Source: Actinomycetota bacterium
GTDB taxonomy: Bacteria > Actinomycetota > Rubrobacteria > Rubrobacterales > Rubrobacteraceae
Direction: 5' to 3'
Assembly: GCA_902810695.1 (NCBI GenBank)
Contig: CADDYV010000030.1
Span: 1-40,780, forward strand
DNA length: 40,780 nt
Shown here in pieces: positions 25,607-39,358 of the stretch (within the stretch, counting starts at the first letter, position 1; each line of letters starts with the position of its first letter). The notes under the pieces are model-generated. The model searched no databases. It was not told where the DNA came from and worked only from the letters and a program-made list of their open reading frames with translations. The position numbers and the translations under genes are program-made.

Positions 25607-28048
25607 ATGGAGTCTAGCGCCAGGGTTGTAGTTATCGGGGCAGGCATCGTCGGCTGCGGCGTCGCCGAGCATTTAACGAGGATGGGCTGGCGGGATGTGG
25701 TGGTCCTGGATCAGGGTCCGCTGTTTAGGGCGGGCGGGTCCACCTCGCACGCGCCGGGTCTGATGTTCCAGACCAACCCGTCGAAAACGATGACGGATCT
25801 GGCGAAGTACAGCGTCGGGCGCTACTCGGAGCTGGAGCTGGACGGCCAGCCGTGCTGCTACCAGGTGGGCGGCATAGAGGTCGCCGCCACGCCGGAGCGG
25901 TGGAAGGATCTCAAGCGCAAACACGGCCTGGCAGCCTCGTGGGGGCTCCAGTCGCACCTGATATCACCCGAAGAATGCCAGGAGAAGATACCGCTTCTGG
26001 ACGGGAGCAAGATCTACGGCGGATTCTACGTCCCCACCGACGGCATCGCCAAGGCGGTAAGGGCGTGCGAGGCGATGGCCAACCTCGCGACAGAGCGCGG
26101 CGCGAAATTCTACGGCGAGACGGAAGTTACGGGGATCGAGGTCAAAAACGGCCGCGTGCGGGCCGTAGAGACGGACAAAGGACGCATCGAAACGGAGCTG
26201 GTCGTGAGCTGCGCCGGGATGTGGGGGCCGAAGATCGGGCGTATGGTCGGCATGAAGATACCGCTCACCCCCATGCAGCACCAGTACGCCTGGACCACGC
26301 CGCTCGAAGAGCTGGAAGGCGAGAGCCGCGAGGTCGTCCACCCTATCCTGCGCCACCAGGACTTCTCGATGTACTTCCGCCAGAGAGAAGACCGCTACGG
26401 CATAGGCACCTACCGGCACCGTCCCATGCCCATCTCCCCCGACGACATCCTGCGCTGGGGCGAGGCCGAGGTGATGCCCTCGGTCATGAAGTTTACGCCC
26501 GAGGACTTCGAACCTTCCTGGCAGGAGGCGCGCCGGATGCTCCCCGCCCTGGAGAAGGTAGAAATCGAGGAGCCGATGAACGGCCTGTTCTCGTTCACGC
26601 CGGACGGGATGCCGCTTCTGGGCGAGTCGAGGGAGGCCAGGGGCTTCTGGGTGGCGGAGGCGGTCTGGATCACGCACGCTCTGGGTATCGCGAAGGCGAT
26701 GGCGGAGTGGATCTCCGAGGGCGTCCCGAGCGTGGACCTGAGCGGCTGCGACATCCACCGCTTCGAGCCCCACGCCCTGAGCCCTTCCTATGTGCTGGCG
26801 CGCAGCTCGCAGTCCTTCCGCGAGGTCTACGACATCATCCATCCCCTGCAGCCGATGGAGGAGCCGCGCCCGCTGCGGACGAGCCCCTTCTACCCACGCC
26901 AGAAGGCACTCGGGGCGTACTTTCTGGAGGCCAGCGGCTGGGAGCGGCCGCACTGGTTCGAGGTTAACGCCCCGCTGGCCGAGGGCCGCGACATCCCGGA
27001 GCGCGACGAGTGGTCCGCGCGCTACTGGTCGCCCATCGCTGGCGCCGAACATCTCCACACGCGCGAGCGGGTCGCCCTCTACGACATGACCCCTCTAAAG
27101 AAAGTAGAGGTAACCGGCCCCGGCGCGCTGGAGTTCCTGCAGCGTCTCAACACCAACCAGCTAGAGAAGCCGGTGGGGAGCGTAACCTACACGCTTATGC
27201 TCGACGAGAACGGCGGGGTGAGGAGCGACATAACCGTCGCGCGCCTCGGCGAAGAACACTTCCAGGTCGGCTGCAACGGGCCGCGAGATGTCGTGTGGAT
27301 GGAGCGCCACCTGCCTGATGACGGCTCGGTGCGGATAAGGGACATAACGAGCGGGACCTGCTGCGTCGGCGTCTGGGGGCCGATGGCCCGGGATCTCGTG
27401 CAGGGCCTCACCGAAGACGACTTCTCCAACGAGGCGTTCGGGTTCTTCAAGGCGAAGCGGGCCTATCTGCGCGAGGTCCCGGTCGTCGCGCTCCGGGTCT
27501 CCTACGTCGGGGAATTGGGGTGGGAGATCTACACCACCGCCGACCTGGGATTGAGGCTGTGGGACCTGTTATGGAGAGCCGGGCAGCCCTTCGGTGTCAT
27601 AGCCGGCGGGCGCAGCGCGTTCAACGGCCTGCGGCTGGAGAAGGGCTACCGGATGTGGGGCACGGACATGACTACCGAGCACGACCCCTACGAGGCGGGG
27701 CTGGGCTTCGCGGTCAAGCCGGAGAAGGGCGATTTCGTCGGCAGGGAGGCGCTCCTGAGGCGCAAAGAAGAAGGGCTGAGGAGGAAGCTCTCTTGCCTAG
27801 TGCTCGAAGAGCCAGGGGCGGTAGTCATGGGCAGCGAGCCGGTCTACGCGAATGGCAGGGCAGCCGGTTACGTTACCAGCGCGGCCTACGGCTACTCGGT
27901 GGGGCGGGGCATCGCCTACGCCTGGCTGCCGCCGGAGCTCGCGGAGGCCGGGAGCGCGGTGGAGATCGAATACTTCGGCGAGCGGCGTGCGGCCACGGTC
28001 GCGGAGGAGCCGCTCTTCGATCCGGCGATGAAGCGGATGCGCGCGTGA
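25607..28048 (+). CDS. Dimethylglycine/sarcosine dehydrogenase-like FAD oxidoreductase fused to GcvT domain
   Basis: An 813-residue two-domain enzyme. The N-terminal DAO-type FAD domain (about 1-375) has VVVIGAGIVGCG and GGSTSHAPG, where H48 fits the covalent-FAD histidine of dimethylglycine oxidase/dehydrogenase. An FAO_M linker (about 375-440) leads to a GcvT folate domain (about 450-810) with GGVRSDITVARL and a C-terminal barrel. Such enzymes oxidise an N-methyl group and transfer the resulting methylene unit to tetrahydrofolate, forming 5,10-methylene-THF. The likely substrate is dimethylglycine or sarcosine, consistent with a ProP-like importer before it and a sarcosine oxidase-like gene at the end of the block. 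Start ATG 25607 with a weak AGGTGG upstream. Confidence 0.92.
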   Translation: MESSARVVVIGAGIVGCGVAEHLTRMGWRDVVVLDQGPLFRAGGSTSHAPGLMFQTNPSKTMTDLAKYSVGRYSELELDGQPCCYQVGGIEVAATPERWKDLKRKHGLAASWGLQSHLISPEECQEKIPLLDGSKIYGGFYVPTDGIAKAVRACEAMANLATERGAKFYGETEVTGIEVKNGRVRAVETDKGRIETELVVSCAGMWGPKIGRMVGMKIPLTPMQHQYAWTTPLEELEGESREVVHPILRHQDFSMYFRQREDRYGIGTYRHRPMPISPDDILRWGEAEVMPSVMKFTPEDFEPSWQEARRMLPALEKVEIEEPMNGLFSFTPDGMPLLGESREARGFWVAEAVWITHALGIAKAMAEWISEGVPSVDLSGCDIHRFEPHALSPSYVLARSSQSFREVYDIIHPLQPMEEPRPLRTSPFYPRQKALGAYFLEASGWERPHWFEVNAPLAEGRDIPERDEWSARYWSPIAGAEHLHTRERVALYDMTPLKKVEVTGPGALEFLQRLNTNQLEKPVGSVTYTLMLDENGGVRSDITVARLGEEHFQVGCNGPRDVVWMERHLPDDGSVRIRDITSGTCCVGVWGPMARDLVQGLTEDDFSNEAFGFFKAKRAYLREVPVVALRVSYVGELGWEIYTTADLGLRLWDLLWRAGQPFGVIAGGRSAFNGLRLEKGYRMWGTDMTTEHDPYEAGLGFAVKPEKGDFVGREALLRRKEEGLRRKLSCLVLEEPGAVVMGSEPVYANGRAAGYVTSAAYGYSVGRGIAYAWLPPELAEAGSAVEIEYFGERRAATVAEEPLFDPAMKRMRA

Positions 28049-28152: not shown

Positions 28153-29367
28153 TTGACCCAGGCAAACATTCCTCCGGCAGAGCAGAAAAACCGGGCACCG
28201 GAAATACTTCTGTACACCAGGATCAAGAAGAGCCCCTACTTCTACGCTTCGCGCAAGCACGGGCCTGCGATGTACAGCACCTACAACCACCACTACCACC
28301 CGCGCCACTACGGCGACCCGGTACAGGAGTACTGGGAGCTTCTGAACGGTGTAACGCTGTGGGACGTGGGCGGAGCCGAGCGGCAGGTCGAGATCACCGG
28401 CCCCGACGCCTTCGAGTTCACCAACATGCTCGTCCCGCGCGATCTGAACAAGTGCGCCGTCGGGCAGTGCAAGTACGTCTTCATCACCGCTCCCGATGGC
28501 GGCATCATCAACGACCCCGTCCTGCTGCGGCTCGGTGAAAATCACTTCTGGCTCTCGCTCGCGGACAGCGACGTGCTCCTGTGGGCCATGGGGCTGGCGT
28601 ACAACTCAGGGCTGAACGTGGAGATAAAAGAGCCCGATGTGGGCCCGGTTCAGGTGCAGGGTCCCAAGTCGCGCGAGGTCATGGTGGACCTCTTCGGGGA
28701 GAAGATCCTCGAAGTGCCCTACTACTACACCGTGAGCGAGGAGCTCGACGGGATGGAGGTCGTCATCTCCCGCACCGGGTACACCTCCGAGATCGGGTTC
28801 GAGATCTACCTGAAGAACGCGAGCCGCGACGGGGAGAAGCTGTGGGACGCCGTCTGGCAGGCGGGTGAGCCGCACGGGATGAAGGTCATAGGCCCCTGCC
28901 ACATCCGGCGCATCGAGGGCGGCATCCTCGCCTACGGCTGCGACATGGACCTCTCCACCAACCCCTACGAGGTTGACTACGGCTACGAGTGGATGGTGGA
29001 CCTCGATCAGGAAGCGGACTTCGTGGGCAAGGAAGCCTTAAAACGCATCAAGGAAGAGGGCGTAAGCCGCAAGCTGGTCGGAGTCGAGATCGGGGGCGAG
29101 TCTTTAGGCTCCTACAACGACGGCTCGATGATCGACTTCTTCCCGGTCTACGACGGTGAGCGGCATATCGGGAAGGTAACCTCGGCGTGCTACTCGCCGC
29201 GGCTGGAGAAGAACATCGGGTACGCGATGGTGCCCATAGAGTACATCGAGTACGGCACCGAGCTGCAGGTGGATACCCCCCACGGCAGGCAGCGGGCCGT
29301 GGTCGTCCGCAGGCCGTTCGTGGACCCGGAGAAGGAGATCCCCAAGCAAAAGCTGGCAACAAGCTGA
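28153..29367 (+). CDS. DmdA/LigM-like tetrahydrofolate-dependent methyltransferase (GcvT fold)
   Basis: A 404-residue stand-alone T-protein-fold enzyme with a TTG start behind GGGAGGTG. Unlike true glycine-cleavage T-proteins, which have GG(I/L)xDD, it reads GGIINDPVLLRL (N120, D121, P122) and LSLADSDVLLW and PDVGPVQVQGPKS, a pattern I recall from DMSP demethylase DmdA. Those relatives move a methyl group from S-, O- or N-methyl substrates to THF, yielding 5-methyl-THF. It is directly followed by metF-like and formyl-THF ligase genes, the same order as ligM-metF-ligH for aromatic O-demethylation in Sphingobium. The substrate is unknown; betaine, DMSP or a methoxyaromatic are possible. A plain aminomethyltransferase is the alternative. 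Confidence 0.85.
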   Translation: MTQANIPPAEQKNRAPEILLYTRIKKSPYFYASRKHGPAMYSTYNHHYHPRHYGDPVQEYWELLNGVTLWDVGGAERQVEITGPDAFEFTNMLVPRDLNKCAVGQCKYVFITAPDGGIINDPVLLRLGENHFWLSLADSDVLLWAMGLAYNSGLNVEIKEPDVGPVQVQGPKSREVMVDLFGEKILEVPYYYTVSEELDGMEVVISRTGYTSEIGFEIYLKNASRDGEKLWDAVWQAGEPHGMKVIGPCHIRRIEGGILAYGCDMDLSTNPYEVDYGYEWMVDLDQEADFVGKEALKRIKEEGVSRKLVGVEIGGESLGSYNDGSMIDFFPVYDGERHIGKVTSACYSPRLEKNIGYAMVPIEYIEYGTELQVDTPHGRQRAVVVRRPFVDPEKEIPKQKLATS

Positions 29368-29384: not shown

Positions 29385-29417
29385 GAGAGGCGGCGGACCT
29401 CGCGTTGGTCGCCTCTC
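29385..29417 (+). terminator. Hairpin between methyltransferase and metF-like genes
   Basis: GAGAGGCG (29385-29392) and CGCCTCTC (29410-29417) form a perfect 8-bp GC-rich stem with a 17-nt loop that can itself pair ACC with GGT. A T/C-rich run (CTTTTCTTTTC) begins 11 nt later, too far for a standard terminator but compatible with partial termination, attenuation or transcript processing inside the operon. Confidence 0.4.
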
Positions 29418-29452
29418 CTCAGATCACCTTTTCTTTTCAGGAAGTGGTCGCA

Positions 29453-30328
29453 ATGATGATGCAACAGACCGAGAAAGAGGCGCTGGCCGCCGCCCTGCGG
29501 CATCCCAGGTACGAGGTGATCCCGCTGGAAGGCATAGAAGAAGAGGTCGCGGAGCACGTCCCCAGAGACATCAAGCTGACCGTTACCGCCTCGCCAAAGA
29601 AGGGCATCGAGGCGACGCTGGATCTTACGGAGCGGCTCCTGCAACTGGGCTTCCGGGTAACACCCCACATAGCGGCGCGGCTTGTCGTTGATAACGCCCA
29701 CCTGGAGGACATACTGCAGAGGATGGACGGGATGGGCGTGCGGGAGGTCTTCGTTATCGCGGGAGACGAGGAGGAGCCCGCCGGAGAGTTCGAGGGGGCG
29801 GTGGATCTTCTGCGGGCGATGGCCGAAGTCGGGCACAGCTTCGAGGAGGTGGGTATCAGCGGCTACCCGGAGAGCCACCCGGTCATAAGCGATGAGACTA
29901 CAATTCAGGCCATGTACGAGAAGGCCCCCTACGCCAGCTACATAGTCAGCCAGATCTGCTTCAACCCGAAGGTCATAGCGGGCTGGGTGCGGGCGGTGCA
30001 CGAGCGCGGGGTGGGGCTGCCGATCTACGTCGGGATGCCCGGCGTGGTGAGCAACCAGAAGCTGCTCCACATCTCCACCAGGATCGGGCTCGGCGAGTCC
30101 TCGCGGTTTCTGAAGAAGCACAGCAACTGGCTCCTTCGGATGTTCCTTCCCGGCGGGTACAACCCCGACAACCTGATCGAAGGCCTCGTCCCCTACCTCG
30201 CAGATCCGTGGTACAAGATATCGGGGTTTCACGTATACACTTTCAATGAGTTAAAACGTTTGGAGGCGTGGCGGCGCGAGCGGCTGGAAAGCCTGGGGAA
30301 AGCGATATCCAAGGAGACGACTGCATGA
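29453..30328 (+). CDS. Divergent methylenetetrahydrofolate reductase (MetF) homologue
   Basis: A 291-residue TIM-barrel protein of the MetF family. The flavin/folate aspartate region is VIAGDEEEPAGEF (D105), and GISGYPESHP, SQICFNPKVIAGWV and IYVGMPGVV follow the family order. It is divergent: the glutamate that activates folate in E. coli (E28 in FEFFPP) aligns with T45 in VTASPKK, and the HLTC motif is missing. Placed between a methyl-THF-producing methyltransferase and formyl-THF ligase, it probably oxidises 5-methyl-THF to 5,10-methylene-THF. Three consecutive ATGs (29453, 29456, 29459) are possible; the first is used. Its stop overlaps the next ATG by 4 bp. Confidence 0.86.
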   Translation: MMMQQTEKEALAAALRHPRYEVIPLEGIEEEVAEHVPRDIKLTVTASPKKGIEATLDLTERLLQLGFRVTPHIAARLVVDNAHLEDILQRMDGMGVREVFVIAGDEEEPAGEFEGAVDLLRAMAEVGHSFEEVGISGYPESHPVISDETTIQAMYEKAPYASYIVSQICFNPKVIAGWVRAVHERGVGLPIYVGMPGVVSNQKLLHISTRIGLGESSRFLKKHSNWLLRMFLPGGYNPDNLIEGLVPYLADPWYKISGFHVYTFNELKRLEAWRRERLESLGKAISKETTA

Positions 30329-32034
30329 AGTTCCCAACCAAGGTCCCATCTAACCTGGAAGTAGCGCGCAAGGCGAAGCTAATGCCTATAGAGGAGATCG
30401 CTGAGTCTATGGGCATAGAAGAGCATCTCCTGGACCCTTATGGCAAATCCGTAGCCAAGATAAAGCTCGATGCTATAGAGGAGCTTGCCAATAGACCCAA
30501 AGCAAAGTACGTGGTCGTCTCTGCTATAACCCCAACTCCTCTGGGAGAGGGCAAGACCACTACCACCGTGGGCCTGGGGCAGGCTTTCAAGCACATCGGA
30601 AAGAGAGCGACTGTTGCAGTGAGGCAGGCTTCGATGGGACCGGCCTTTGGGATCAAGGGCGGAGCAGCGGGGGGTGGCTACAGCCAGATCGTGCCCATGG
30701 ACAGGCTCAACCTGCACCTCACAGGAGATCTGCACGCCGTAACCGAGGCCCACAACATGCTCTCGGCGATGATAGACAACCACCTCTACCAGGGAAACTC
30801 TCTAGATATAGACCCGCATTCGATCACCTGGCGGCGGGTGATGGACGTGAACGACAGAGCTTTGAGGAACATCGTGGTGGGGCTGGGCTCAAGGGTTGAT
30901 GGCATACCCAGACAATCTGGCTTCGACATCACGGCGGCTTCCGAGGTCATGGCGATCCTCGCTCTGGCGACCTCCATCCAGGATATGAGAAAGAGGTTTG
31001 GCAGGATCGTCATCGCCAGCAACCGCGATGGCGATCCCATAACCGCCGAGGACGTAAAGGGAGCGGGGGCGATGACGGTGATCATGCGCGAGGCCATAAA
31101 GCCCAACCTGATGCAGACCATCGAGAACACTCCGGCTCTGGTCCACGCCGGACCGTTTGGGAACATCGCCCACGGCAACTCCTCGATTGTGGCGGACCTC
31201 ATCGGCATTCACTCGGGAGACTTCCTCGTTACCGAGGCGGGCTTCGGTGCGGACATGGGAGCCGAACGCTTCTTCAACATCAAGTGTCGCAACTCCGGCT
31301 TAAAGCCGGATGCAGCAGTGGTCGTGGCAACTGTGCGGGCGCTAAAAGCCCACTCCGGGCGGCACAAGATAGTTGCTGGCAGGGATCTTCCGCCAGAGCT
31401 TCTGGAAGAGAACCCCGATGACGTTTACGCCGGAGCAGCCAACCTCAAAAAGCAGATCGAGAACATAAGGCTGCACGGGGTCTCCCCGGTGGTGGCGGTC
31501 AACTCCTTTCCCACCGACTACCCTTCAGAACACGCCGCCATCCGCGAGGTCGCCAAAGAGATGGGCGCACGCATCGCTATCTGCAACCACTTCTCAGAAG
31601 GCGGGGCAGGGGCAGTGGAGCTGGCAGAAGCGGTGGCCGAAGCAGCAGAGGAGCCAAGCGACTTCCACTTCCTCTACCCCGATGAAGCGAGCCTCAAGGA
31701 GAAGATAGAGACCATCGCCACCAAGCTCTATGGAGCAAAGGATGTAGAGTACGACCACATAGCCTCCCAGGCGCTTGAGTCCTACGAGAAGGCGGGCTTT
31801 GGCAACCTGCCGGTATGCATCGCCAAGAGTCACCTCTCACTCTCCTCGGACCCCAGCCTCAAAGGAGCGCCAACGGGATGGGTTATGCCGGTAAGGCAGG
31901 TCAGAGCCTCGGTGGGAGCGGGGTTCATCTACCCCATCTGCGGAGAGATGCGCACGATGCCGGGACTTAGTGCCTCGCCTGCAGCCGAGAAGATAGACAT
32001 AGACGAAAACGGCGAGATCGTGGGGCTCTTCTGA
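30325..32034 (+). CDS. fhs: Formate--tetrahydrofolate ligase
   Basis: A 569-residue 10-formyl-THF synthetase with the P-loop TPLGEGKTTTTVGLGQ near residues 65-80, RQASMGPAFGIKGGAAGGGY, and EAGFGADMGAERFFNIKCR. It interconverts formate, ATP and THF with 10-formyl-THF. In this oxidative C1 module it may run towards formate and ATP. The ATG overlaps the metF-like stop by 4 bp (ATGA), with AAGGAG upstream. Length is normal. Codon choice is noticeably less GC-biased than in its neighbours (many ATA, AGA, CTA and GCT-type codons), hinting at higher expression or a separate origin. Confidence 0.96.
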   Translation: MKFPTKVPSNLEVARKAKLMPIEEIAESMGIEEHLLDPYGKSVAKIKLDAIEELANRPKAKYVVVSAITPTPLGEGKTTTTVGLGQAFKHIGKRATVAVRQASMGPAFGIKGGAAGGGYSQIVPMDRLNLHLTGDLHAVTEAHNMLSAMIDNHLYQGNSLDIDPHSITWRRVMDVNDRALRNIVVGLGSRVDGIPRQSGFDITAASEVMAILALATSIQDMRKRFGRIVIASNRDGDPITAEDVKGAGAMTVIMREAIKPNLMQTIENTPALVHAGPFGNIAHGNSSIVADLIGIHSGDFLVTEAGFGADMGAERFFNIKCRNSGLKPDAAVVVATVRALKAHSGRHKIVAGRDLPPELLEENPDDVYAGAANLKKQIENIRLHGVSPVVAVNSFPTDYPSEHAAIREVAKEMGARIAICNHFSEGGAGAVELAEAVAEAAEEPSDFHFLYPDEASLKEKIETIATKLYGAKDVEYDHIASQALESYEKAGFGNLPVCIAKSHLSLSSDPSLKGAPTGWVMPVRQVRASVGAGFIYPICGEMRTMPGLSASPAAEKIDIDENGEIVGLF

Positions 32035-32152: not shown

Positions 32153-32758
32153 GTGTCTGCTGAGACGAAACCTTCCAGAGATTACCCACAGATGTCGCTG
32201 GGGCGGTTTCTGGAGCTTGTCGGCTCAGCGGAGCCCGATCCTGGCGGCGGAGCCGTGTGCGCCGTGGCAGTAGCCCTCTCGGCGGCGCTCGCGGGGATGG
32301 CCGCCCGTTTCTCCGAGAAACATCTCGACGGCTCCGCCGAACTCGCCGCCAGAGCCGAGAAGCTGCGCGAGCGCGCACTACCGCTGGCGCAGGCGGACGC
32401 GGAAGCCTACGGACGCGTGATATCAGCTTACCGCATGCCGCGCGAGGAGAATCCCGCCCGTCGTAAGCGTGAGATCCGGGAGGCGCTCTCGGGAGCGGCT
32501 GACGTACCTCTTGAGATCGTCGAGATCGGCGCGGAGGTGGCGGACCTCGCGTCACATCTGGCCCGCTCCGGCAACCCGAACCTGAAGGGAGACGCGGTCT
32601 CCGCCGCGCTCCTCGCCGAGGCCGCGGTCCGGGCGGCGGCTAACCTGGCGGAGATCAACCTCTCCGGCGCCGAAGCGAGAGACGATGCGAGGCTCGGGCA
32701 ACTGGGCAAGATCCAGATGCGCGCCGCTGCCGCCCGAAAGAGCGTCCTGGAGGATTGA
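32153..32758 (+). CDS. FTCD/FchA-family methenyl-THF cyclohydrolase (cyclodeaminase-like)
   Basis: A 201-residue all-helical protein of the formiminotransferase-cyclodeaminase C-terminal family. It has the hallmark FLELVGSAEPDPGGGAVCA near the N-terminus and the late NPNLKGDAVSAALLAEAAV segment. Stand-alone members include FchA, the methenyl-THF cyclohydrolase of methylotrophs, and formimino-THF cyclodeaminase. Here it lies between fhs and a FolD homologue that lacks cyclohydrolase residues, so methenyl-THF to 10-formyl-THF conversion is the likely role. The GTG start at 32153 follows GGGGAGG. No histidine-degradation genes are near, arguing against cyclodeaminase. Confidence 0.85.
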   Translation: MSAETKPSRDYPQMSLGRFLELVGSAEPDPGGGAVCAVAVALSAALAGMAARFSEKHLDGSAELAARAEKLRERALPLAQADAEAYGRVISAYRMPREENPARRKREIREALSGAADVPLEIVEIGAEVADLASHLARSGNPNLKGDAVSAALLAEAAVRAAANLAEINLSGAEARDDARLGQLGKIQMRAAAARKSVLED

Positions 32759-32760
32759 CC

Positions 32761-33741
32761 TTGGGCGCCCGGATCATAGACGGCAAGGCTCTCGCCGCCG
32801 GACTGAAGCGGCAACTGGCAGAGCAGATGGCCGCCCTGGAAGAGAAGGATATCAGACCTGGGCTCGCGACCGTGCTGGTGGGCAACCCTTACGAGGCGGA
32901 AGCCTACGAGAAGAGGATTCGATACCTCGCCGGGGATATCGGCTGCCACTATACCCGCGAGCCGCTCCCGGAAGATACGGCAGAGGCCGACGTGGTAGCA
33001 ACCGTCGGCAAGCTCAACGCGGACCCGCGCGTATCCGGCATCCTGATCCTCAAGCCGCTGCCGGAGGGAATCTCCGAAGCCGCGGTGCACGAGGCGCTGG
33101 ACCCGAAGAAGGACATCGAGGCGGTCCACCCGGTGAACGCGGGCCTCCTGACTCTGGGAAGACCCCGCTACGTTCCCTCCACCCCGGCGGCCTGCTTCCA
33201 CGCGCTGGATAGCTACCTCGCTTCCTCGGGGCGAGATCCCGCAGACTTCTACTCCCGGAGCAACCTGGTGGTCGTGGGCCGCTCGAACAACGTCGGAAAG
33301 CCTCTCGTCTCCTTGGGGTTCTCGCGCAACGCCACCGTAACCTCCTGCGACGTGCACACCTACAACGCCGGACGCCTGCGCGAGTTCACCATCCAGGCCG
33401 ATATCCTCATCGTGGCCGCGGGTGTAGAGGGGCTCATAGACGCAAGCTACGTGCGGGAAGGTGTGATCGCCGTGGACGTGGGCATCAACCCGGTCGAAGA
33501 CCCCGAAACCGGCCAGACGAAGCTCGTCGGAGATCTGGACTTCGAGAGCGTCGCGGAGAAGGCCGAGGCCCTCACCCCCGTCCCCGGCGGCATCGGTCCC
33601 GTAACCGACGCCTGGCTCCTGAACAACGCCATCCTGGCCGCAAAAACCGCCGCAGGGCTCGACACCTCTGTTGAACCCGCGGCCAGGCAGCCTCTCTCTT
33701 CAAGCAACAAGATATACAATCTACAGAACATCAGGGAATAA
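32761..33741 (+). CDS. FolD-family methylene-THF dehydrogenase lacking canonical cyclohydrolase residues
   Basis: A 326-residue FolD homologue. N-terminal folate domain and Rossmann domain are both recognisable: RIIDGKALA, VVVGRSNNVGKPLVS, VDVGINPVEDP and TPVPGGIGPVTDAW. An ungapped alignment from VLVG onward to E. coli FolD places Y49 on Y52, but I53 on the essential K56, L97 on Q98 and E120 on D121. So the dehydrogenase fold is intact while the cyclohydrolase catalytic set is lost, as in monofunctional dehydrogenases. The FchA-like gene just upstream could supply the missing step. The TTG at 32761, seven bases after GGAGG, is preferred over the TTG at 32755. A 40-residue C-terminal extension is extra. 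Confidence 0.88.
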   Translation: MGARIIDGKALAAGLKRQLAEQMAALEEKDIRPGLATVLVGNPYEAEAYEKRIRYLAGDIGCHYTREPLPEDTAEADVVATVGKLNADPRVSGILILKPLPEGISEAAVHEALDPKKDIEAVHPVNAGLLTLGRPRYVPSTPAACFHALDSYLASSGRDPADFYSRSNLVVVGRSNNVGKPLVSLGFSRNATVTSCDVHTYNAGRLREFTIQADILIVAAGVEGLIDASYVREGVIAVDVGINPVEDPETGQTKLVGDLDFESVAEKAEALTPVPGGIGPVTDAWLLNNAILAAKTAAGLDTSVEPAARQPLSSSNKIYNLQNIRE

Positions 33742-33758: not shown

Positions 33759-35060
33759 ATGCCCGAGAGAAGAACGCCTTTCTACGATTACCACCTGCGC
33801 ACCGCTAGCAGCATGGTCAAAGGTGGCGGAGACTTCATGTTCCCCACCTCCTACACCTCACCGGTCGAGGAGCATTTGAACGTCAGGCGCAACGCAGGTG
33901 TGCAGGACTTATCCACGATGGGAGAGGTGGACATCAAGGGTCCGGGCGCCGAGCGGCTGGTGCGGCGGCTTCTGGTCAACGAGGTTCTGGACATGGAGCC
34001 GGGACAGCTCCGCTACTCGCAGATGTGCAACGAAGAGGGCGGCATTGTGGACGATATTACCGTCTACAAGTTCGATGACGAGCACTTCATGATCGTGGTC
34101 AGCAGCGGGCCGCGCATAAAGAGCTACCGCTGGATCGCAGAGCACGCCGCAGGCGCGAGCGCCTACGTAACCGATATGACGGCGGCGATCGCGCTGCCCG
34201 TGGTGCAGGGGCCGCGCTCGCGCCAGTTTCTCAAGACTGTCGTTGAAGACGTGGACCTCGACGCTCTTCGATTTTTCCGGTTCGCCCGCGGGCGGATCGG
34301 GGACGTGGAGCTTCTCATCTCCCGCTCCGGCTACACCGGAGAGCTCGGCTACGAGCTCTACACTCCCGCAGATCAGGCGCAGGTTTTGTGGGAGCACCTC
34401 TTGCAGCAGGGCCGCGAGTTCAACCTGCGTCCCTACGGTGTTCAGGCCATGCAATCGCTGCGCATCGAGAAGAGCCTGCCGCTCTACGGCTCGGACATAA
34501 ACGAAGCGTACACCCCGTTTCACGCGGGGCTTGGGCGCTGGGTCCGTTTCGACAAGCCTGACTTCATAGGTCGGGAGGCGCTGTTGCGGGTGCAGGAGCG
34601 GGGGCTGGAGAAGCGCTGGGTCGGGCTGACGCTCGAAAGCGAGGCTCCCGCCGCAGCGGGCGACAAAGTCTACAGCATCGGTGATGTGGCGACCTTCCGG
34701 GAGATGATGTACAGCGGCAGCGAGGCCGGAGAGTACAAGGATAGGCTCTTGCCCGGAGAGAGGCAGGTCGGGCACGTAACCGCGAGCGTCTGGGGACCGA
34801 CGGTGGGAAAGATGCTCGCGATGGCCTACGTGGATACCGCCCACTCCTGGCCGGGGAACAACCTGCTCGTGGAGATAAACGGCCGTCCCGTCGCCGCGAA
34901 GGTCGTCCAGACGCCGTTCTTCGACCCGGAGATGAGGCGTCCCCGGGCCAAACCCCAGGACGACGAGGGGAGACTGGAGCCGACCCCGCAGCCGGTTCCG
35001 GCCACCGGTGTCCCGGCGGGCACCTCCCTCGACACCTCCCACGGCAACGGCGCGAGATGA
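33759..35060 (+). CDS. Aminomethyltransferase (GcvT-like) paralogue
   Basis: A 433-residue T-protein-fold enzyme. The folate-binding aspartate motif is canonical, GGIVDDITVYKF, followed by VVQGPRSRQFL, ISRSGYTGELGYELY and SLRIEKSLPLYGSDI; the C-terminal barrel ends near residue 390 and is followed by a proline-rich tail. It probably transfers a methyl or methylene group from an N-methyl amine or aminomethyl donor to THF. It is the third GcvT-fold protein in this block. No GcvH or GcvP gene is visible, so a glycine-cleavage role is less likely than partnership with the sarcosine oxidase-like enzyme encoded just downstream (4-bp overlap). Strong AAGGAGGAG before the ATG. Confidence 0.9.
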   Translation: MPERRTPFYDYHLRTASSMVKGGGDFMFPTSYTSPVEEHLNVRRNAGVQDLSTMGEVDIKGPGAERLVRRLLVNEVLDMEPGQLRYSQMCNEEGGIVDDITVYKFDDEHFMIVVSSGPRIKSYRWIAEHAAGASAYVTDMTAAIALPVVQGPRSRQFLKTVVEDVDLDALRFFRFARGRIGDVELLISRSGYTGELGYELYTPADQAQVLWEHLLQQGREFNLRPYGVQAMQSLRIEKSLPLYGSDINEAYTPFHAGLGRWVRFDKPDFIGREALLRVQERGLEKRWVGLTLESEAPAAAGDKVYSIGDVATFREMMYSGSEAGEYKDRLLPGERQVGHVTASVWGPTVGKMLAMAYVDTAHSWPGNNLLVEINGRPVAAKVVQTPFFDPEMRRPRAKPQDDEGRLEPTPQPVPATGVPAGTSLDTSHGNGAR

Positions 35061-36286
35061 ACGATTCGTACTCGGGCCGCTACGATGTGATCGTCGTCGG
35101 GGCGGGCGCGATGGGCAGCGCCACCGCCTACTACCTCGCCCGGCGCGGCAAGCGGGTGCTCGCCATCGAACGTTTCGGTATCCCGCACTCGATGGGCTCT
35201 TCCCACGGCCACACCCGCATCATCCGGCTCGCCTACTACGAGCACCCCTCCTACGTGATGCTGCTCAGACGAGCTTACGAGCTGTGGCGCGATATCCAGC
35301 GCGAAGCCGGCGAGAAGCTCCTTCACATCACCGGCTCCGTAGACGCCGGGCCCGAGGATAGCTGGGTTTTCAAGGGCTCGTGGGAGTCCTGCAGGCTCCA
35401 CGACCTTCCCCACGAGGTCCTGACCGGATCCGAACTGCGGCGGCGCCACCCTGGCTACCACCTGCCCCCCGAGCACCTGGCGCTCTTGCAGCCGGAGGGT
35501 GGCTTCCTCGCGCCGGAGCGGTGCATCGTCTCCTACGTGATGGCGGCGCAGGCGAGAGGAGCCGAGGTTCATGGCCGCGAGCGAGTCCTGGAGTGGGTTC
35601 CGCTCGAAGGCGGGGTGCGCGTCCGCACCGACCGCGGCACATACGAAGCGGAGAAACTCGTCATCACCGCCGGAGCGTGGAACGGGCACCTGCTCAACAT
35701 CCTCGACGGCCTCGTCGCGCCCGAGCGCCAGGTTCTCGCCTGGCTACAGCCGACCCGCCCCGAATACTTCCGGCCAGAGAACTTCCCGGTGTTCAACCTG
35801 CTCGTGGACGAGGGACGCTTCTACGGTTTTCCGGTCTTCGGGGTGCCGGGCTTTAAGTTCGGCAAATACCACCACCTCGAAGAGAGCGTGGACCCCGAAA
35901 ATTGGGACCGCGAAGTCCACGACCACGACGAGCGGTTGCTCAGGGAGTTCGCCGGGCGGTACTTCCCGGATGGGTGCGGTCCGACGATGGACCTCCAGGT
36001 ATGCATGTTCACCAACTCGCCCGACAACCACTTCGTCATAGACGTGCACCCCGATTACCCGCAGGTCTCCTTCGCCTCGCCCTGCTCCGGGCACGGCTTC
36101 AAGTTCGCGAGCGTGGTAGGTGAGATCATGGCGGACCTCGCCGAGCGGGGCATGACCCGCCACGACATAAGCCTCTTCCGACTGGGGCGGTTCGCAGAAC
36201 CAGAGCGGCGCGTAGTCTCCTTCGAAGCGCGCGACGGGAGAGCACGCCGCTTTTCCAGGCCGAGGGAGGTGCGCCCGCTCTGGTAA
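35057..36286 (+). CDS. Monomeric sarcosine oxidase / N-methyl amino acid oxidase family
   Basis: A 409-residue flavoenzyme. It has VIVVGAGAMGSATAYYLARRG (FAD dinucleotide site, split here for reading as GAGAMG at residues 15-20), H50, R54 and R57 in SSHGHTRIIR, the flavin-linking cysteine C316 in CMFTNSPD, and K349 in CSGHGFKF. These match the Bacillus monomeric sarcosine oxidase residues H45, R49, R52, C315 and K348, so an active oxidase with covalent FAD is expected. It oxidises N-methyl groups of sarcosine, N-methyltryptophan or similar. It overlaps the GcvT paralogue by 4 bp, hinting that formaldehyde or methylene is passed to THF. The C-terminus is about 20 residues longer than usual. 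Confidence 0.93.
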   Translation: MNDSYSGRYDVIVVGAGAMGSATAYYLARRGKRVLAIERFGIPHSMGSSHGHTRIIRLAYYEHPSYVMLLRRAYELWRDIQREAGEKLLHITGSVDAGPEDSWVFKGSWESCRLHDLPHEVLTGSELRRRHPGYHLPPEHLALLQPEGGFLAPERCIVSYVMAAQARGAEVHGRERVLEWVPLEGGVRVRTDRGTYEAEKLVITAGAWNGHLLNILDGLVAPERQVLAWLQPTRPEYFRPENFPVFNLLVDEGRFYGFPVFGVPGFKFGKYHHLEESVDPENWDREVHDHDERLLREFAGRYFPDGCGPTMDLQVCMFTNSPDNHFVIDVHPDYPQVSFASPCSGHGFKFASVVGEIMADLAERGMTRHDISLFRLGRFAEPERRVVSFEARDGRARRFSRPREVRPLW

Positions 36287-36303: not shown

Positions 36304-37077
36304 CTAGCTGGCTCGGGCCCGGCGGTACTCTTCGACTACGAGATCGGTCAGCTCCTCCATGGAGGTCTCGGCCGTAGGCTTGTCGTAGGTGATCTCGCCG
36401 TGCTGGATCAGGTTCACCCGGTCGCAGATGCCGAAGATGTGAGCGTAGTTGTGGTCCACCATGATGATCGAGATCTCCCCGTCCTCCCGGAGCCTCTGGA
36501 TGAGGTCCATGATCATCGTGGCCTCCTTGGCCCCCATCGCCGCCAGAGGCTCGTCCAGCAGCAATATCTTCGTGTTGGCCGAGTACACCGCCCGCGCGAC
36601 CGCTATCGCCTGGCGCTGCCCGCCGGAGAGGCGGGCTATCGGTTCGTCTATCGAGGGGATGTTGACGCCAATGTCCTCCAGGTACTGGCGGGTTTTCTTC
36701 TTCATCTCGCGCTTGTTCAAAAAGCGCGGGAATTTGTGGGTGATCTCCTTGTTGAGGAACATGTTCTCGTAGACGGTCATGTCGTTGGCCAGCGCAAGGT
36801 CCTGGTAGACCGCCTGTATCCCCAGAGACTGGGCGTGGGAGACGGACTTCAGTTCGATCTCCTCGCCCTCCAGGTAGAGCTTGCCCTCCGTAGGCTTGTG
36901 GAAGCCCGTGAGGATCTTCATCAGGGTGGACTTGCCCGCGCCGTTGTCGCCCACGATCCCGAGGACCTCGCCCTTCTTGAGATGCATGGAGACGCCGCGC
37001 AGGGCAACCACGGATCCAAACTGCTTGACGATGCCCTCAGCCCGCAGAACGTCGGGCACTTCTTCGGTGTTGCTCAT
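36304..37077 (-). CDS. Sugar-type ABC transporter ATPase, single cassette
   Basis: A 257-residue ATP-binding subunit. Walker A is GDNGAGKST (residues 43-51), Q-loop AVYQDL, signature LSGGQRQA (150-157), Walker B ILLLDEPLAA with D175 and E176, and switch histidine H209 (VDHN). It has one cassette, not the two of RbsA-type proteins, resembling FrcA of the fructose importer. It is the last gene of a binding protein-permease-ATPase operon. The ATG at 37077 overlaps the permease stop by 4 bp; the frame is open much further upstream, but that region is inside the permease gene. It runs convergent to the sarcosine oxidase-like gene (17-bp gap). Confidence 0.94.
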   Translation of the reverse strand: MSNTEEVPDVLRAEGIVKQFGSVVALRGVSMHLKKGEVLGIVGDNGAGKSTLMKILTGFHKPTEGKLYLEGEEIELKSVSHAQSLGIQAVYQDLALANDMTVYENMFLNKEITHKFPRFLNKREMKKKTRQYLEDIGVNIPSIDEPIARLSGGQRQAIAVARAVYSANTKILLLDEPLAAMGAKEATMIMDLIQRLREDGEISIIMVDHNYAHIFGICDRVNLIQHGEITYDKPTAETSMEELTDLVVEEYRRARAS

Positions 37078-38111
37078 GTAGATCCTTTCCTCCTGGCCTG
37101 GAGAAACCCGCCGAAGCCACCGCGCTCGCGCACGGTGCCGAGGTAGATGTTGAAGATCATCAGTATCAGGATCGCAACCCCCAGGATGACGTCGAAGGTG
37201 TTGGCGCTGACCCCGAGGAGCGTGAACCCCTGCCTGAGCTCCGCCAGCACTATGGAGCCCAGAAACGCACCGATCATGGTCCCGACCCCGCCGGCCAGCG
37301 GCGTGCCACCAATAACCGCCGCCGAGATAGCCAGGAACATCGTGTTCGCGCCACCGGCAAGCGGGTCTATGGACCCCACCCGCATTGACTCCAGGATGCC
37401 CGCGAACCCGGCCAGGGCGGCGGCGATCATAAAGTTGACGACCCTTATCCTGTTTACCCTGATGCCTGCCTCCCTCGCTCCTAGGAGATTTCCGCCGGTG
37501 GCGAAGGTATGCATGCCCCAGCGGGTGTGTCGGAGAAGAAGGTGCATCAGTACCAGCAGGATGAATGCCCAGACTATCTCCGAGTACGGGTAGCTTCCCA
37601 GCCACTGCCGCACCGTCCCGCCGGGAGCATTCTGGGGGAACCCGTTAAGCAGTATGACGTTAAGTCCCCCGAGCAGGAAGAACGTGCCTAAAGTGACCAC
37701 GAACGAGGGGACTCTGAAGTACACGTGCACCACACCGTTGATCAGCCCAACCGCGGCACAGGCGAGAAGCCCTATCGCCACGGCTATCGGGAGGATCAGG
37801 CGCAGGTCCGCGTAGGCGAGCCACATCACGATCGGAGCGAACCCGAAGGTAGACCCCACCGAGAGGTCTATCTCCCCCAGGATCATGACCATCACGAGGC
37901 CCACGGCCATGATCACATACGGAGCCACGGTCTGCGAGAGGGTGGTCAGGTTGCTCTGCGTCCAGAAGCCCGAGTTGGCGAACTGAAAATACAAGAACAG
38001 TATCGCGGCGATAACGAATATGCCCACCTCGCGCTGCACCAGCAGCCTGCGGGCTCCGTGTAGCAGGCCACCAGCACTCTCCTGCCTGCCGGCTGCGTTA
38101 CCGGTTGTCAT
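37074..38111 (-). CDS. ABC transporter permease, RbsC/FrcB type
   Basis: A 345-residue membrane protein with eight to ten hydrophobic helices. Typical BPD_transp_2 features are VMILGEIDLSVGSTFG, VPSFVVTLGTFFLLGGLN, the GGNLLGAREAGIRVNR loop that contacts the ATPase, and AVIGGTPLAGGVGTMIGAFLG. It forms the channel for a sugar or polyol. The ATG at 38111 has GGAGGTGAG upstream. It lies 36 bp after the binding-protein gene. Substrate cannot be predicted; inositol, ribose or fructose types share this architecture. Confidence 0.93.
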   Translation of the reverse strand: MTTGNAAGRQESAGGLLHGARRLLVQREVGIFVIAAILFLYFQFANSGFWTQSNLTTLSQTVAPYVIMAVGLVMVMILGEIDLSVGSTFGFAPIVMWLAYADLRLILPIAVAIGLLACAAVGLINGVVHVYFRVPSFVVTLGTFFLLGGLNVILLNGFPQNAPGGTVRQWLGSYPYSEIVWAFILLVLMHLLLRHTRWGMHTFATGGNLLGAREAGIRVNRIRVVNFMIAAALAGFAGILESMRVGSIDPLAGGANTMFLAISAAVIGGTPLAGGVGTMIGAFLGSIVLAELRQGFTLLGVSANTFDVILGVAILILMIFNIYLGTVRERGGFGGFLQARRKGST

Positions 38112-38147
38112 AGGCTCTCACCTCCAAATAGTTCCTCACCCTCAAGA

Positions 38148-39263
38148 CTAGGAGGGGGAGTACGTGGAAGGCGGGCTTATCTTCGAGGGAACCTTGATCA
38201 GCTTCTCCTGCTTGGAGCTGCCCTCGTAGCGCGACTTGCTGCTCAGGTATGGGGCGACCGTGTCCTTGGTAACGAACTTCAGTCCCGTGCTGGTCGTCGA
38301 AGGAGCCATGAGCCCGCCCGAAATCCTGTAGAGGTAGAGCTGCATCACCGGCCAGAAGCCCTGCTGGTAGGGCTGCTGGTCTATGGTGAAGTCCAGGTGC
38401 CCTTCCTTGATGTACTGCAGCGTCTTGGGCAGCAGGTCGTACCCGCCTCCCCTGACGCCCTTGGCGTGCAGCCCGTACTTCTTCATCACCTGGCCGACGC
38501 TCTGGGTGGACCCGGCATCCACGGCGAACATGCCCTTCACGTCCTTGTGCCCCTGGTAGTAGGCATCTATTCTGTTCAGCTCGTCGGTTACCTGCGCGCC
38601 GGTCGCCACCTCCGAGACCTGTATCGGTGCCCCGGATTGCTTGATCCCGGCCTTCGCGCCGTCTATCCTCGGCTGGATGTTGAGCTGCCCTGGGGTGGCG
38701 ATGAAGAGCGCGACCTTGCCCTTCTTGACGAGCTGGGCGATCCTCTTGCCCATCTCCACGCCGGACTGGTAGAGGTCCTGCCCGATGTACGCGAGCGCGG
38801 GGTTGGGCTTGCCCGGAGCGCCGTTGGCGTTGTAGGCGACTACGGGTATGCCCTTCTGGTAGGCTTTCAGTATCGGGGCGTTGAAAGCCTTGGGGTCCAC
38901 GATGGAGACCGCGATGCCGTCGGCATTGCCGTCAATCGCCGTGTTCATCGCGTTGACCATCTCGGAAACTATCGAGTTTTCAGATCCCGTCCACTGGTAC
39001 TTGCACCCCAGGAGCGCGCAGGCATCCTGAATGCCGTACTGCGTGGCGGTGAAGAACGGATTGGTCGTTACGTGGTTGACGAACACGAAGTTGTACTGCG
39101 GGGTCTTCGGATAGTTCCCCACTCCACTGCTGCTACCGCTGGCCTGGCTCCCCCCGCTGGTGCTCCTGCATCCGTCCAGAAGCAGCGCGCCCGCTCCAGC
39201 CGCAGCACCCGCTAGCAAAAACTTGCGGCGCGAAATACCCCGTTCCTCGATCTCTCTATCCAC
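38148..39263 (-). CDS. ABC transporter substrate-binding lipoprotein, ribose-type, Tat-exported
   Basis: A 371-residue periplasmic-binding-protein-like (Peripla_BP_4) lipoprotein. The N-terminus carries a twin-arginine signal SRRKFLL (RR at 12-13), a hydrophobic Ala/Gly-rich stretch, and a lipobox ending in C32 (LLLDGC). A serine/glycine linker follows (GGSQASGSSSG). The mature part has FVNHVTTNPFF near its start, as in ribose-type binding proteins, and VAYNANGAPGKPNPALAYIG. The GTG at 39263 is preferred because AGAAGGAG lies eight bases upstream and it gives a normal Tat signal; a start at ATG 39326 would add 21 polar residues before it. First gene of the ABC operon. Confidence 0.92.
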   Translation of the reverse strand: MDREIEERGISRRKFLLAGAAAGAGALLLDGCRSTSGGSQASGSSSGVGNYPKTPQYNFVFVNHVTTNPFFTATQYGIQDACALLGCKYQWTGSENSIVSEMVNAMNTAIDGNADGIAVSIVDPKAFNAPILKAYQKGIPVVAYNANGAPGKPNPALAYIGQDLYQSGVEMGKRIAQLVKKGKVALFIATPGQLNIQPRIDGAKAGIKQSGAPIQVSEVATGAQVTDELNRIDAYYQGHKDVKGMFAVDAGSTQSVGQVMKKYGLHAKGVRGGGYDLLPKTLQYIKEGHLDFTIDQQPYQQGFWPVMQLYLYRISGGLMAPSTTSTGLKFVTKDTVAPYLSSKSRYEGSSKQEKLIKVPSKISPPSTYSPS

Positions 39264-39324
39264 TTGTGTGTCTCCTTCTATCCCAGTTTTCCCATGGGTT
39301 CGATGGCCGGTTAGATCTTTCCCC

Positions 39325-39358
39325 ATGCACTGTGCATAACTTTACACTCACTTTACAC
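39325..39358 (-). promoter_or_regulatory. Candidate operators upstream of the ABC transporter operon
   Basis: About 60-95 bp upstream of the binding-protein GTG lie a perfect 13-bp inverted repeat ATGCAC-T-GTGCAT (39325-39337) and, adjacent to it, two direct copies of ACTTTACAC (39339-39347 and 39350-39358) spaced by 2 bp, a period of 11 bp or one helical turn. Read on the minus strand the repeats are GTGTAAAGT and may overlap a -10 element (TGTAAA), with TTGTGG at 39365-39370 as a possible -35. Regulator unknown; no regulator gene is adjacent. Confidence 0.45.

Follow-up and report, generated by a model that had tools for sequence, protein, structure and literature searches.

The window, by which we mean the whole 40,780-nucleotide stretch of a Rubrobacteraceae (Actinomycetota) contig analysed here, contains a forward-strand operon of folate-linked one-carbon genes (Table 1). 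Their order is FAD oxidoreductase-GcvT fusion, DmdA/GcvT-like demethylase, MetF-like homologue, formate--tetrahydrofolate (THF) ligase (Fhs), FchA-like cyclohydrolase, FolD, GcvT-like aminomethyltransferase and N-methyl amino acid oxidase-like enzyme. The operon reads as a system for demethylating N-methyl compounds onto THF and then oxidizing the C1 unit to formate, where we infer the substrate and, from the operon content, the oxidative direction of flux. The Fhs-FchA-FolD order is kept in seven related loci (L041-L043, L049, L051, L075 and L076); it is joined by a MetF-like gene in L049 and L051, and in L076 it is accompanied by the fusion and a DmdA-like gene. The window's MetF homologue, at 48 bits to methylene-THF reductase models, is possibly of a catabolic, methyl-THF-oxidizing type. 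Convergent with the operon, on the reverse strand at 36304-39326, lies what appears by eye to be a sugar-type ABC transporter with ATPase, permease and substrate-binding protein, a possible uptake system for the operon's substrate.

Table 1. Features of the window, and tandem FolD genes of other loci in the coordinates of those loci.
Feature	Coordinates	Strand	Basis
FAD oxidoreductase-GcvT fusion, dimethylglycine/sarcosine dehydrogenase-like	25607..28048	+	PF01266, PF16350, PF01571, PF08669
GcvT/DmdA-like THF-dependent methyltransferase (demethylase)	28153..29367	+	PF01571; NCBIfam DMSP demethylase 337 bits, below cut-off 410
Distant MetF-like homologue of methylene-THF reductase; may start further in	29405..30328	+	PF02219, 48 bits
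Fhs, formate--THF ligase; ATG overlaps stop of preceding gene (ATGA)	30325..32034	+	PF01268, 846 bits
FchA-like methenyl-THF cyclohydrolase (predicted), FTCD_C domain, 201 aa	32153..32758	+	PF04961, 131 bits
GGAGG, ribosome-binding-like, inside the end of fchA; serves start 32761	32749..32753	+	read from sequence
Lysine-less FolD (326 aa), predicted to be a methylene-THF dehydrogenase lacking cyclohydrolase activity	32761..33741	+	PF00763, PF02882
Tyr49 codon TAC (E. coli Tyr50), kept	32905..32907	+	alignment; sequence
Ile53 codon ATT, catalytic lysine site (E. coli Lys54, human Lys56)	32917..32919	+	alignment; sequence
Leu97 codon CTC, E. coli Gln98 site	33049..33051	+	alignment
Glu120 codon GAG, E. 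coli Asp121 site, conservative change	33118..33120	+	alignment
GcvT-like aminomethyltransferase	33759..35060	+	PF01571, 279 bits
N-methyl amino acid oxidase-like FAD enzyme	35057..36286	+	NCBIfam NF008425, 531 bits, above cut-off 257
Tandem FolDs of L080	7097-7942, 8007-8894		
Tandem FolDs of L081	7092-7940, 8004-8891		
Tandem FolDs of L105	8001-8873, 9033-9905		
Tandem FolDs of L136	7998-8861, 8910-9773		

The folD open reading frame encodes a real, full-length FolD homologue that belongs to the FolD superfamily, with both Pfam domains far above their cut-offs (PF00763, 96 bits versus 32.8; PF02882, 151 bits versus 27). A mechanical list of reading frames gives 32755-33741, beginning with a TTG at 32755, but the TTG at 32761, two bases after the end of the fchA stop codon, is the better start because the GGAGG is spaced 7 bases from it and only 1 base from the other. 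The first-pass annotation had numbered residues from 32761, and the codons read from the sequence place Tyr49, Ile53, Leu97 and Glu120 exactly where it had put them. An AlphaFold2 model built from an 18-sequence alignment (pLDDT 90.5) superimposes on E. coli FolD (1b0a) with TM scores of 0.83/0.94, and its nearest solved structures are FolD/MTHFD enzymes (TM up to 0.95 by target length). Against the NCBIfam bifunctional models the protein scores at best 249 bits, below the cut-off of 396, although these models are narrow and a score under their cut-off says little by itself.

The active site departs from the bifunctional type. A MAFFT alignment that includes E. coli FolD and canonical FolDs from related genomes has no gaps between VLVG and the glycine after the helix, and in it every canonical sequence has K, Q and D at the three sites where the window FolD has I, L and E. 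The lysine of YxxxK is thus Ile53 and its Gln98 partner Leu97. The loss of three residues proposed in the first-pass annotation holds for the lysine and the glutamine, while the replacement of Asp by Glu120 is conservative and carries less weight. The labels used there (K56, Q98, D121) mix human with E. coli numbering and read K54, Q98 and D121 when E. coli is used throughout. A register shift that would restore the lysine is excluded by the gap-free alignment and by the model, in which residues 44-60 form one unbroken helix (pLDDT ~95) holding both Tyr49 and Ile53; no shift in the full alignment brings a lysine back to human position 56. Tyr49, the GRSxxVGKP NAD(P) motif and TPVPGG are retained, as had also been claimed. 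Relatives at 59-67% identity have the pattern I/V/L-L-E, and all close relatives have a hydrophobic residue plus Leu (I/V/L-L-E or V-L-D).

Mutants of the E. coli enzyme indicate what such changes may cost. The K54N variant has undetectable cyclohydrolase activity and ~19% of the dehydrogenase activity, and Q98H retains ~1% and ~8%, respectively (PMC5688156). Since both lose most of their dehydrogenase activity, the window clade must have compensated for that loss if its FolD works as a dehydrogenase. A further difference lies in the cofactor site, where human His196 has been described as helping to hold the NADP phosphate (PMC3368264). The equivalent E. coli position 190 is His in 126 of 129 canonical FolDs and Asp in 12 of 20 window-clade sequences, including the window itself (CDVH). 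An acidic residue in place of the His that helps hold the 2'-phosphate suggests a preference for NAD+, tentatively so given that the Arg and Ser of GRS are retained in the clade. Such a preference would fit a catabolic role.

The gene directly upstream encodes an FchA-family protein, as the first-pass annotation had said. Its PF04961 score far exceeds the cut-off of 24.5, and it keeps PGGG, D82, A115, P119, D147 and N169, which are the invariant residues of 76 diverse homologues. The best PDB match is 7vg4, deposited as a methenyltetrahydrofolate cyclohydrolase, which we take to come from Methylobacterium. Because the protein reaches 105 bits against the NCBIfam FchA equivalog NF045657, below its cut-off of 275, we file it as FchA-like and not as a certified FchA.

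Both proteins are the only ones of their kind in the genome as assembled. The assembly (3.59 Mb, 98.2% complete) has one match to PF00763, one full match to PF02882 and one to PF04961, all within this operon, so the second, canonical folD for which a check had been suggested is absent from the assembly by PF00763/PF02882 profile search. Other PF02882 matches are below threshold (at most 18 bits over ~40-75 positions) and look like generic Rossmann folds. Two formyltransferase-family genes, of 193 residues (PurN size) and 340 residues (Fmt size), imply that 10-formyl-THF is needed for biosynthesis, and it could come from FolD plus FchA and from Fhs. Having no second copies in the genome, FolD and FchA would have to serve biosynthesis too, alongside Fhs. 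Three sister-genus genomes likewise contain a lysine-less FolD only; three genomes of the same family (G008, G010 and G019) have both a window-type and a canonical FolD. The cultivable relative Rubrobacter taiwanensis has this Fch-FolD pair as well, and a nearly identical genome among those analysed retains a canonical FolD in addition.

A survey of FolD neighbourhoods places this arrangement in a broader context. In 396 sampled Actinomycetota genomes, a profile of the FolD variant (A1) cleanly separated variants, at 363 bits or more, from canonical FolDs, at roughly 303 bits or less, the exception being a contig-edge fragment in G327 that scored 281 bits. Among the fetched loci, some of which had been collected with the variant profile, FchA lay within 1.5 kb of 51 of 68 lysine-less FolDs versus 0 of 112 lysine-bearing ones. 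After thinning, which left 185 non-redundant genomic FolDs and the E. coli enzyme as a reference, FchA was found beside 0 of the 123 scorable canonical K/Q FolDs (E. coli counted) versus 39 of the 55 scorable altered ones, with the same origin of the loci applying. As a counter-check, loci were chosen by FchA alone, and the adjoining FolD was altered in all cases, both in Actinomycetota (11/11, some redundant with the earlier loci) and in Bacillota (6/6). FchA is adjacent to the lysine-less FolD in each of the 32 examined Actinomycetota genomes that have no other FolD. Lysine-less FolDs without an adjoining FchA belong mainly to one family (f8), whose genomes encode, at other loci, a canonical FolD and mostly also an FchA. 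FchA adjacency and loss of the K/Q pair go together in the samples of two phyla.

The form of the loss differs between these phyla. Bacillota FolDs next to FchA usually retain the lysine and carry Glu in place of Gln98 (YKED), and sometimes have YAMD, YAFD or YLLD instead. The YKED type is found beside FchA in L272-L274, L277, L283, L310, L311, L314-L321 and L323-L327, and is likely another route to a dehydrogenase-only FolD. A separate observation concerns the genome G451 (L259/L333), in which a FolD from the canonical part of the tree has Gln for Lys54 (YQQD) and lacks an FchA neighbour, although the genome has two FchA-family genes.

A different arrangement occurs where FchA is missing. L080, L081 and in part L079 have two FolDs in tandem, preceded by Fhs (seen in L080). 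In these loci the first copy keeps Tyr, Lys, Gln and Asp and has altered NAD(P) motifs (GRGPLVALP, GVSF), and the second lacks the lysine and has an intact GRSHNVGKP. The lysine-bearing copy, which sits on a very long branch (1.71), occupies the place that FchA has in the window clade. In Chloroflexota (L105/L336, L136, L337 and L338) the order is reversed: a lysine-less (YI-) copy with intact GRSNIVGKP comes before a YKQD copy with NVDN or SADN in place of GRSN. Such complementary pairs were found in four Chloroflexota genomes and two to three Actinomycetota MAGs, and FchA is absent from the tandem-FolD genomes checked for it (those of L079, L080, L081, L105 and L136). We lean towards complementary decay as the explanation, judging by the residue patterns. 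A FolD linked to FchA would lose Lys/Gln, and where FchA is missing, the tandem FolDs would divide into a dehydrogenase-only and a cyclohydrolase-only copy. No cyclohydrolase-like FolD of this kind (A3-type) was found in the 396 sampled Actinomycetota, in which the best matches score at the canonical level, so the pairing is rare there.

In a tree of 106 sequences from which the four trait columns had been removed, most altered FolDs fall in a few large groups, and parsimony needs three changes between intact and altered FolD. The FchA-linked groups are the window/YVLD clade (99%), the KE clade (99%) and an AM/AF/AL/IQ group (89%); they may have one or several origins, as the backbone lacks resolution. 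The lysine loss in Chloroflexota is nested within canonical FolDs (97-99%) and is independent. An independent-pairs test of the association finds only 2-3 independent pairs and has no power. Given the three parsimony changes, the backbone and the powerless test, we claim an association and not many convergent losses.

The best explanation of these observations, to which we give a probability of about 85%, is that the window encodes a dehydrogenase-only FolD with the FchA-like protein as its partner cyclohydrolase, the activities, direction and substrate being predicted from sequence and gene content. The operon would oxidize methyl groups from N-methyl compounds such as sarcosine or dimethylglycine. 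FolD would oxidize 5,10-methylene-THF to 5,10-methenyl-THF and stop there, since with Lys54 and Gln98 gone it is proposed to be unable to hydrolyse the product. Methenyl-THF would pass to FchA, which would convert it to 10-formyl-THF, and Fhs, encoded one gene further up, would release formate and ATP. The division of labour with a compensating upstream FchA, suggested in the first-pass annotation, is supported at the genomic level by the sole FolD, the conserved FchA residues and the adjacency survey.

It is very unlikely that the window FolD is still bifunctional, with Lys51 or Arg52 (two and one residues before Ile53 on the same helix) or Glu120 standing in for Lys54. KR or RR does precede Ile53 in the window clade, and the role of the lysine as a base is still debated; from human enzyme data it has been argued that the main contribution of Lys56 is to binding in the dehydrogenase step (PMC9173628). 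However, residues one and two positions before Ile53 face other sides of the continuous helix in the model, both positions are free of basic residues in other lysine-less clades (RGQV in the YVLD clade), and E. coli K54N loses detectable cyclohydrolase activity with Arg55 and Lys56 alongside (PMC5688156). The presence of FchA next to a lysine-less sole FolD in every such genome examined also argues against a FolD that does both steps.

The FTCD_C family includes cyclodeaminases, and the neighbour, which falls below the NCBIfam cut-off, could be a cyclodeaminase-like relative instead; that it is a formimino-THF cyclodeaminase of histidine or purine degradation, next to folD by chance, is very unlikely, because its best PDB match is a methenyl-THF cyclohydrolase, no formiminotransferase is among the annotated operon genes, and the Fhs-FchA-FolD order is conserved. 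Least likely is a degenerate or moonlighting FolD without methylene-THF dehydrogenase activity, with Fhs alone supplying 10-formyl-THF. The lowered dehydrogenase activity of the E. coli Lys and Gln mutants would agree with it, but the lysine-less type is conserved across dozens of genomes in several families with little or no variation in its Tyr, NAD(P) loop and TPVPGG, is the sole FolD in more than 30 genomes, and, in all window-clade loci with compared neighbourhoods, is part of a folate operon.

A dehydrogenase-only FolD partnered by FchA is in principle already known. In Clostridium perfringens, FolD is reportedly a dehydrogenase only, FchA supplies the cyclohydrolase step, and Fhs is present. 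The window resembles that system in its predicted dehydrogenase-only FolD with a separate FchA, and differs in that its FolD has lost the Lys as well, in an actinobacterial demethylation operon, whereas the FchA-linked FolDs of Bacillota in this survey mostly keep Lys54 and have Glu for Gln98. The occurrence of a separate cyclohydrolase FchA in some microbes has been noted, with Aluri et al. 2016 (Microbiology 162:145) cited on C. perfringens (PMC7219735), as has a monofunctional dehydrogenase in Peptostreptococcus productus (PMC6443876). The window FolD shares its fold, both Pfam domains, Tyr50, the NAD(P) loop and TPVPGG with the E. coli enzyme and differs from it in having Ile for Lys54, Leu for Gln98, Glu for Asp121, Asp for His190 and a longer segment just after His190. 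The analogy to yeast Mtd1 (1edz) in the first-pass annotation captures a dehydrogenase without cyclohydrolase activity: Mtd1 is an NAD-dependent monofunctional dehydrogenase that works as the window FolD is proposed to. Mtd1 belongs to another lineage, though, and is a distant profile match (E 8e-17, versus 1e-76 for bacterial FolDs), which makes the analogy loose and the C. perfringens pair the better precedent. Methylobacterium MtdA and Fch also place dehydrogenase and cyclohydrolase on separate proteins; MtdA belongs to another dehydrogenase family than FolD.

New, as far as we have found, are an actinobacterial clade with a lysine-less FolD as sole FolD inside a demethylation operon, and FchA-less genomes that pair a lysine-less FolD with a lysine-intact, NAD(P)-damaged one; tandem complementary FolD pairs had no description in the literature searched. 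Nearly everywhere, FolD is labelled bifunctional, also in the NCBIfam names that this protein attracts; testing Lys54/Gln98 and looking for FchA would put this right in many genomes and metabolic models. The question of why one active site houses both dehydrogenase and cyclohydrolase could be studied with what these lineages supply, namely FolDs that would have dropped one activity and tandem pairs that seem to have split the two. As carolacton is no longer bound by E. coli K54N FolD (PMC5688156), lysine-less FolDs are predicted to be insensitive to it. A further departure from the canonical type is a second, very divergent FolD in G038 (L052:7162-8052), which keeps Lys, Gln and Asp, has Gln in place of Tyr50, and has GLGEIMSRP as its NAD(P) motif.
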